From positions 95,935 to 159,934 of the IMG/VR virus record IMGVR_UViG_3300007734_000760: a stretch of 64,000 nucleotides of DNA, one strand, 5' to 3'. Position numbers and translations under genes: made by a program. Each line of letters starts with the position of its first letter. The stretch's first letter is position 1. Of the stretch, positions 3,072 through 57,093 are shown in pieces. Under the pieces are notes generated by a model, which worked only from the letters and a program-made list of their open reading frames with translations, did not search any database and was not told where the DNA came from. This DNA comes from a virus.

Positions 3072-3482
3072 CTATTTAAAAATATCATCTTCTAAATCCT
3101 TTAGACTATCAAAAAAATTATTTTTTGATACTCTTTGTTTAGAAAAAGGTGTAAAAGCATTATTTTCTCCTCTTCCTCCTTTAGCAATAATTCCAGATTT
3201 TATTAAACTGTTAATTTTAGGTCTAAGAACGGTGACATAAGATTGCGCGTTTTTATTTTGAAGTTTACTAATATTTTGAATTAAAGCATCAGCAATTTGA
3301 ATAGAATCTAATCCTTTATCTCCTGCTTTTTCTAAAGCATTAATCATTTCTACTATTTCAGGTGTATTAGCATGTAATGTTTTAAGACGTTTAGCTTTTT
3401 CTTTATCAGTAATAATTATATTATCACCAAAACGACCTTGTTTAGCTTCAGCAAGAATTTTTTGAATAAATTTATTTTCCAT
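3072..3482 (-). CDS. Hypothetical protein, possibly DNA-binding
   Basis: A 136-residue, Lys-rich protein. The middle (about residues 40-100) has alternating helices and a pattern like a winged helix: a run of helix, turn, helix, then LRPKINSLIKSGIIAKGGRG, which resembles the recognition helix and wing. This is a weak structural guess. It stands alone between the terminator at 3013-3042 and the FAD gene piece. No family recognised. Confidence 0.6.
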   Translation of the reverse strand: MENKFIQKILAEAKQGRFGDNIIITDKEKAKRLKTLHANTPEIVEMINALEKAGDKGLDSIQIADALIQNISKLQNKNAQSYVTVLRPKINSLIKSGIIAKGGRGENNAFTPFSKQRVSKNNFFDSLKDLEDDIFK

Positions 3483-45584: not shown

Positions 45585-45638
45585 TAGTCAGGACAGGATT
45601 CGAACCTGTAGTAACGGATACTATTCCTCTACCTGACT
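45585..45638 (-). ncRNA. tRNA-like gene lacking an anticodon arm
   Basis: 54 nt with a perfect 7-bp acceptor (AGTCAGG/CCTGACT), a T arm ACAGG-TTCGAAT-CCTGT, discriminator A and a small GGA-ATAGTA-TCC hairpin at the D-arm position. No anticodon stem can be drawn, and no CCA is encoded. It lies between tmRNA and the copy-1 RNA element. It shares acceptor, T-arm and flanks with the larger tRNA at 56640..56730, from which it could derive by loss of about 40 nt, or it could be a dedicated tRNA-like RNA. Confidence 0.6.
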
Positions 45639-45644
45639 AAATTG

Positions 45645-45705
45645 CTCCTTATAAATCCTTCCCGTGCACGGAACAAGAAACTGGGGAGACGTTGTTTCTA
45701 CTTTT
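45645..45705 (-). ncRNA. Conserved 61-nt RNA element, copy 1
   Basis: 57 of 61 bases match copy 2 (56788..56848). On the minus strand the sequence runs AGTAGAAACAACGTCTCCCC, a hairpin TTCCG-TGCA-CGGGAA, then GGATTTATAAGGAG. Three of the four differences fall in the hairpin stem, and all keep pairing (C-G to U-A, and U-G to U-A). A CUCC/GGAG pairing can close the element. It lies 6 nt 5' of the tRNA-like gene. Could be a processing signal, self-cleaving RNA or regulatory RNA; I do not recognise a known class. Confidence 0.65.
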
Positions 45706-45761
45706 CAGAGGCTTAGTTACCCTCATCTGACCGTTTAGCAGGTTGAAGCTGCACTTTGGCG

Positions 45762-45833
45762 TACTCTGTACGGGAATCGAACCCGTATTTTGTCCGTGAA
45801 AGGGACACGTCCTAGCCCTTAGACGAACGGAGC
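45762..45833 (-). tRNA. tRNA-Glu (anticodon TTC)
   Basis: Minus strand sequence from GCTCCGTTCGTCTAAGGGCT; anticodon arm TGTCC-CTTTCAC-GGACA gives anticodon TTC. T arm is ACGGG-TTCGATT-CCCGT. The acceptor has a G-U first pair and one C-A mismatch near the middle. The CCA end is not encoded. First tRNA in the cluster with tRNA-like and tmRNA genes. Confidence 0.85.
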
Positions 45834-56624: not shown

Positions 56625-56639
56625 AACTTTTATTTTTAG

Positions 56640-56730
56640 TAGTCAGAACAAGATTTGAACTTGTAGCCAGGTACTTTCCCCTGCGTCATCTGTCTATAAG
56701 AATCTGTGTTACCTATTACACCACCTGACT
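56640..56730 (-). tRNA. tRNA with long variable arm, anticodon uncertain
   Basis: 91 nt on the minus strand. Acceptor AGTCAGG/TCTGACT (one G-T pair), D arm GTGT-AATAGGTA-ACAC, long variable arm with CAGG/CCTG, T arm ACAAG-TTCAAAT-CTTGT. The anticodon stem is not a normal 5-bp stem; possible loops would read Ile-, Tyr- or Ser-type, but none pairs well. It may be degenerate. It is homologous to the arm-less tRNA-like gene at 45585, and both lie downstream of the 61-nt element. Confidence 0.55.
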
Positions 56731-56787
56731 AACACCTTTTTCTGTTTATTGTTGAGTTACAAAAGATAACCGTCACTCAATCTCATT

Positions 56788-56848
56788 CTCCTTATAAATC
56801 CTTTCTGTGCACAGAACAAGAAAATGGGGAGACGTTGTTTCTACTTTT
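56788..56848 (-). ncRNA. Conserved 61-nt RNA element, copy 2
   Basis: 57 of 61 bases match 45645..45705. The hairpin is TTCTG-TGCA-CAGAAA, the U-A version of copy 1's C-G pairs. It lies 57 nt upstream of the long-variable-arm tRNA; the gap contains a TTGAGT...ACTCAA hairpin. Directly downstream of the stop of 56848..57093 in transcription. Structure conserved while sequence changes in the stem argues for a selected RNA. Confidence 0.65.
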
Positions 56849-57093
56849 TAATATACTAATTTGTGCCAGGTTGTTGTACTTGACATTGCAAATGTAACGC
56901 TTTTTTTATTATCAACATATGAAAAGTGATATTCTTTATTACTTTCATTTATTATTTCTGCTAATAAATTATTATTATTTACTCTTAATACTTTAAATAA
57001 AACTGGTAGTAAAGTAGATCCTTCTGGTTTAATATCAAATATTAAATCACTTTCTTTTAATTCTGTAGTTGAAACTTCAATTGTTTTTAACAT
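56848..57093 (-). CDS. Small hypothetical protein
   Basis: An 81-residue protein (MLKTIEVSTTELKESDLIFD ...). Beta-rich, with LFKVLRVNNNNLLAEIINES and KSVTFAMSSTTTWHKLVY. A small barrel-like fold is plausible. Its stop codon is the first base group of the copy-2 RNA element. Start AAAGGTTATG. Confidence 0.5.
   Translation of the reverse strand: MLKTIEVSTTELKESDLIFDIKPEGSTLLPVLFKVLRVNNNNLLAEIINESNKEYHFSYVDNKKSVTFAMSSTTTWHKLVY

Follow-up and report, generated by a model that had tools for sequence, protein, structure and literature searches.

A family of small phage RNAs with a covarying pseudoknot fold, found mostly beside tRNA and tRNA-like genes

ToxI, CptI and the phage-borne pseudo-ToxI are small phage- or host-encoded H-type pseudoknot RNAs that can occur in tandem (PMC3475682, PMC5086642). 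The element reported here, which we refer to as element A, appears closest in kind to these type III antitoxins and to their phage mimic pseudo-ToxI (PMC3475682), as pseudoknot RNAs of phages that are directed against the machinery of the host, although this likeness need not imply membership. It is likewise predicted to be an H-type pseudoknot RNA, and two tandem copies are present in three phages. Unlike the 36-nt ToxI, however, element A is about 60 nt long, contains an extra hairpin, is usually present as a single copy, and has no Rfam match. A search of 396 Bacteroidota genomes, taken as candidate hosts, for the ToxN family alone (PF13958) gave nothing above the cut-off. The theta ribozymes, HDV-like self-cleaving RNAs of gut phages, are located at tRNA 3′ ends with cleavage sites within 5 nt (PMC10879173). 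Element A is similar in being a pseudoknotted RNA beside phage tRNAs, but it has no P3 hairpin, and most copies precede a tRNA 5′ end.

Structured RNAs of other kinds share single features with element A. In the preQ1-II riboswitch a pseudoknot stem is followed by a nested strand, an inserted hairpin, and a closing strand that often contains AAGGAG; the hairpin of element A correspondingly lies between the 3′ strands of stems 1 and 2 of an H-type pseudoknot. Unlike preQ1-II, element A has neither a sequence or Rfam match nor the position of an ORF leader, the 3′ strand of its P1 helix does not resemble a Shine-Dalgarno sequence in L086, L087, L091 and L099, and most loci precede a tRNA or a second element, D. 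GOLLD and ROOL are structured phage RNAs located partly near tRNAs, but they are hundreds of nucleotides long as compared to about 60 for element A, which matches neither in Rfam. In MALAT1-mascRNA a folded RNA sits immediately upstream of a tRNA-like RNA that is cut by RNase P; that system differs in being eukaryotic, with a triple helix containing an ENE, there is no sequence relation, and element A is also found without a tRNA-like RNA.

The window, by which we mean the whole 64,000-nucleotide stretch analyzed, derives from a large contractile-tailed phage encoding T4-like baseplate wedge and DNA ligase proteins, and the features discussed are listed in Table 1. A preliminary description reported that two 61-nt stretches, 45645–45705 and 56788–56848, agree at 57 of 61 positions, that three of the four differences preserve pairing in a minus-strand hairpin, and that the gaps to the nearby tRNA or tRNA-like genes are 6 nt and 57 nt. 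All three statements hold on recounting. The mismatches are at 45661, 45663, 45670 and 45681, the first three altering one pair of a single hairpin (P2) from C-G to U-A and another from U-G to U-A, whereas the fourth, at 45681, is in the end pair of S1, a helix missed previously. The gaps, measured to the acceptor stem, lead to a tRNA-like RNA for copy 1 and a tRNA-Leu for copy 2, with the 57-nt gap of copy 2 being occupied by the conserved pseudoknot D. Using copy 1 as a blastn query against the 159,934-base virus record returned only two places, with E-values of 1.7e-32 and 9.3e-22, so the similarity of the copies is not due to chance. The gene order is tRNA-Glu, element B, A, a 53–55 nt tRNA-like RNA and tmRNA at copy 1, and the stop codon of an ORF, A, D and tRNA-Leu at copy 2.

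Table 1. Coordinates of the RNA elements, helices and neighboring RNA genes at the two loci of the window.
Feature	Position	Strand	Basis or remark
Element A copy 1, pseudoknot RNA	45645..45701	-	35-copy alignment, pair counts, covariance model match of 92 bits
Copy 1 helix S1	45699-45694 with 45681-45676	-	
Copy 1 helix P1	45690-45685 with 45648-45643	-	4 bp plus G-C across a bulged U
Copy 1 hairpin P2	45673-45669 with 45664-45660	-	loop UGCA 45668-45665
Element A copy 2	56788..56844	-	3 nt past stop codon of ORF 56848-57093; covariance model match of 92 bits
Element D, predicted second H-type pseudoknot	56732..56787	-	directly after A; 14-copy alignment
D helix D1	56780-56775 with 56757-56752	-	
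D helix D2	56767-56761 with 56740-56734	-	
Element B, ~44-nt conserved module GCUUCAACCUGCUAAACGGU...GGGUAACUAAGCCUCU	45707..45750	-	between tRNA-Glu and A
tRNA-like RNA, 53-55 nt	45586..45638	-	Rfam tRNA 31.1 bits, cut-off 29; begins 6 nt after A
tRNA-Leu(tag)	56639..56730	-	follows A-D
tRNA-Glu(ttc)	45761..45833	-	upstream of B and A copy 1
tmRNA, tag ANEISDFTFEDALSFVSNEVAIAA	45200..45572	-	ARAGORN and Rfam; downstream of A copy 1 and the tRNA-like RNA

Pattern scans of IMG/VR yielded 35 distinct aligned copies of element A, and the pattern of substitutions among them strongly supports an H-type pseudoknot formed by S1 and P1, the hairpin P2 being contained in its long loop. The consensus helices are AGAAAC/GUUUCU for S1 (alignment columns 9–14/27–32) and RNYUCC/GGARNY for P1 (columns 18–23/62–67), with P2 (columns 35–41/44–50) between; L1 is 2–3 nt and L2 is 3 nt, which suits the classic H-type geometry. 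Over the 35 sequences 93.7% of the cells at these positions are paired, and changes on both sides are seen at 12 of 18 pairs as compared to 6.0 in shuffles, amounting to 64 cells against 13.0 in the shuffled controls; shifting the pairing partners abolishes the signal. Both sides are changed in five P1 pairs and six P2 pairs, and the P1 forms include ACAUCC/GGAUGU (L086), ACUUUC/GAAAGU (L087), UUCUCC/GGAGAA (L036) and CCCGCC/GGUGGG (L091). S1 looked invariant until a scan in which it was left free returned GUAAAAAC with a matching UUUUU in the L092 group, L096 and L099. The S1 pair 10–31 is thus G-C in 30 copies and A-U in five, a change that looks to have occurred in three separate lineages represented by these three; L082 and L099 differ at both S1 positions, and appear related judging by their upstream ORF and hairpin. 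Because the scored cells include 49 G-U but no A-C combinations, the element is an RNA of the window's minus strand rather than a palindrome in DNA. In all 35 copies the bases that open and close the P2 tetraloop (columns 41 and 44) complement each other (UA in 32, CG in two, GC in one), which may reflect either a two-base loop or a contact between two molecules. The preliminary suggestion of a selected minus-strand RNA with compensatory changes is thus borne out by covariation in S1, P1 and P2.

The support for the fold is comparative rather than single-sequence, since the RNAfold z-scores of the two window copies (0.3 and −1.4) are unremarkable. Single-sequence folding prefers a lower stem, 30–33/50–53, that competes with S1; we rejected it, as it leaves the paired changes of G10 to A10 and C31 to U31 unexplained.

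Element A is present in at least 41 phage records, all from uncultured phages in IMG/VR, and these homologues carry pairing changes. A covariance model (R1) trained on the first 25 copies scores 63–94 bits for aligned copies and 48–56 bits for degenerate tandem copies, and whole-record scans located A in 24 of 28 and in 17 of 17 records. Many of the scanned records being fragments, 37 of 41 contain one copy and three contain two in tandem (G424, G425 and G431), with the window's phage alone having two distant copies, 11 kb apart. The near single-copy occurrence argues against a dispersed or mobile (REP-like) repeat, for which many copies per genome would be expected. The tandem pairs at L078, L079 and L088 have a 68-nt spacing, and the second copy has a degenerate P1. 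We note that the scan patterns fixed parts of the sequence, such that invariance at those columns is overstated or partly imposed. Five pattern matches (L080, L081, L085, L089 and L090) and many in the range L017–L047 (e.g. L017, L018, L029 and L047) were discarded as false.

No believable copy was found among cultured phages in INPHARED (blastn and tblastn), plasmids in PLSDB (blastn), or GTDB contigs by pattern scans, where the sole match (L090) lies inside a coding gene. R1 returned a single weak chance match from the 396 Bacteroidota genomes, within a response-regulator-like gene, and thus no host copy to mimic. At the gathering score of Rfam 15 no family covers A, B or D, only tRNA, tmRNA and permuted tmRNA being reported, and a literature search made largely without preprints and subscription papers found no description of the RNA. 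We conclude that element A is a real, strand-resolved and previously uncatalogued family of small phage RNAs of about 60 nt. Phage structured RNAs are seldom catalogued, and the covariance model together with the S1, P1 and P2 rules provides annotators with a new RNA family. Copy 1 and the element of L091/L101 are the same at 53 of 60 positions, whereas the baseplate proteins of these two phages share 31% identity. This slow change suggests that the RNA contacts something invariant in the host, or holds a catalytic core.

Element D is predicted to be a second conserved H-type pseudoknot, often extending A. A model of D (R2) detects a single copy in each of 17 records out of 43, and all copies that were read sit directly after A. 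In the 14-copy alignment the cells are 98.9% paired, with 24 both-side changes as compared to 7.5 when shuffled; D1 has four covarying pairs, and the end pair of D2 is G-C in seven copies and A-U in six. The sole ATG within D is absent from L025 and L096, indicating that the A-D unit of the L101 lineage has no conserved reading frame.

By hand count, a tRNA or tRNA-like RNA lies on at least one side of A at about 29 of 37 loci (about three quarters), in agreement with the association noted in the preliminary description; at the remainder A adjoins B, an ORF or a terminator. In 11 loci the 5′ end of a tRNA or tRNA-like RNA is 5–8 nt after A, and elsewhere it follows A-D; at others a tRNA 3′ end is 5–7 nt upstream of A. 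A abuts an ORF in a few phages, and a cis role is possible there. The tRNA-like RNA following copy 1 has an acceptor stem and a T arm without normal D and anticodon arms, and is not called by ARAGORN. In L101 and its near-identical relatives, 13 nt separate the end of a putative promoter TTTGCA-N-TATCTTTG (TTTGCACATTAAATTTATTTCGTTTATCTTTG) from A, and D is followed immediately by a terminator, such that A-D in this lineage is, on sequence grounds, a gene of its own from promoter to terminator. The 10.7 kb of L101 contain 23 matches to TTTG-N18–22-TANNTTTG, the promoter of A-D among them, with 1.2 expected by chance, and these constitute a strongly conserved array of predicted Bacteroidota-type phage promoters. 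Nearly all of the matches are on one strand, and many are near-identical. A Bacteroidota promoter motif shows no enrichment in the window, with five found and 4.6 expected.

We consider it about an even chance (roughly 0.5) that A, with or without D, is a small RNA of the phage that exists in free form and acts in trans, likely as a decoy or inhibitor of a conserved host protein or ribonucleoprotein. In the window, A would be transcribed within a tRNA-bearing transcript. RNase P cleavage at the tRNA or tRNA-like RNA that follows A, together with tRNA 3′ processing on its upstream side, would leave a free, compact and nuclease-resistant RNA. An acceptor stem with a T arm suffices as an RNase P substrate. 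In L101 and its relatives this RNA would be made from its own promoter and terminator, and the free RNA would most likely bind its host target in trans; RNase P release, trans action and the decoy role are the components that we infer. The slow sequence change described above is suggestive of contact with something conserved in the host. The preliminary description also considered a regulator of the tRNA transcript, but this is weakened since about a quarter of the homologues are without a tRNA and one lineage has a stand-alone promoter-to-terminator unit. More tentatively, and unlikely as it stands, A and A-D could be phage-specific pseudoknot RNAs that disarm a host defense or hijack a conserved RNA-binding machine in trans, with the minimal tRNA-like RNAs as cutting signals; if so, they would represent an RNA-based counter-defense family with no known relative.

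The chief rival to the trans-acting reading is a cap in cis, in which RNase P cleaves at the tRNA-like RNA that follows, and the pseudoknot then shields the upstream RNA, at its newly formed 3′ end, from 3′–5′ exonucleases, much as the MALAT1 triple helix beside mascRNA protects a 3′ end. This fits a subset of loci: those 11 at which A stops just short of a tRNA or tRNA-like 5′ end, those where A-D precedes one, and those where A closely trails a stop codon (window copy 2, L036, L037 and L086); several of the downstream tRNA-like RNAs also have no normal anticodon arm and look like mere cutting signals. We nonetheless regard a cap as unlikely, because in L101 A opens its own short transcript ending in a normal terminator, no tRNA follows A in L013, L007, L019, L038 or L043, and a purely structural role would need fewer conserved unpaired bases than A has. 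A processive antitermination RNA, similar to HK022 put and modifying RNA polymerase on long untranslated tRNA transcripts or before a terminator, would account for the location in tRNA arrays and for the L101 order of promoter, A-D, terminator and next gene. That gene has its own promoter, however, and A is often late in an array or right before a terminator (L082, L086 and L099), so that antitermination is something of a long shot.

A role in maturation of the tRNA transcript, as a self-cleaving ribozyme of HDV/theta-like or new type, is suggested by a compact pseudoknot beside phage tRNAs and by the theta precedent (PMC10879173), and HDV-like ribozymes were named as a precedent in the preliminary description. 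This parallel is unsupported: the nested double pseudoknot of HDV-like RNAs has its P3 hairpin after the 5′ strand of P2 and before the 3′ strand of P1 (in their nomenclature), a site that in element A is occupied by 3 nt, CCA in 33 of 35 copies and CTA or CCT in the remaining two; the two window regions gave no HDV-type Rfam match at E-values up to 5 and 10; and the theta-like spacing from a tRNA 3′ end holds, exactly or nearly, at only about six loci (L007, L013, L041, L079, L092 and L095), the others being mostly before tRNA 5′ ends or free of tRNAs. We consider a ribozyme quite improbable. A riboswitch or translational leader with an AAGGAG ribosome-binding site hidden in P1 shares its topology with preQ1-II, and AAGGAG does end most copies, with an ATG close behind in L007 and L013; yet P1 covaries away from the Shine-Dalgarno sequence (AAGAAAG in L087, GGAUGU in L086, GGUGGG in L091 and GGAAGC in L099), tRNAs rather than ORFs follow most copies, and no Rfam riboswitch matches, making such a role highly improbable. 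Lastly, the nearly palindromic P2 hairpin and loop (UGCA, CGCG and GGCC) and the sharp borders of A could reflect a DNA-level element such as a protein-binding palindrome, recombination site or mobile repeat. Because wobble pairs are strand-specific, the presence of G-U but never A-C cells effectively refutes this, and the covariation across 40 nt and the single copy in nearly every record also speak against it. Given its three helices, its companion pseudoknot, and the lineage that carries it as a separate gene, the RNA lends itself to straightforward probing, deletion and pull-down.

Other modules are present in these regions. The tRNA-like RNAs near A in L004, L006, L011, L014, L016, L019, L036 and L041 mostly start with AGTCAGG and end with CCTGACT, and they have a Leu-like D arm and an anticodon region that is abnormal, elongated or filled by a hairpin. 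Element B (GCUKCAACCUGCUAAACGGU...GAGGGUAACCAAGCCUC) is conserved and RNA-like, and is found before, after or without A (L003, L006, L009 and L048–L052), and element C (CCAGCCACUGUA...GGYGUGGAG) is a conserved hairpin-like module upstream of B (L006, L008, L051 and L052). A long structured non-coding stretch around A and B in L003, L024 and L049, module E (CUUCCCAAGGGUAGACAGUUGUAA...ACAACUGAGUNCAGAGGG), is possibly a large ornate phage RNA. The tRNA region of L033 that contains A also encodes a permuted tmRNA (Rfam RF04321, 57 bits; positions 3075–3335).
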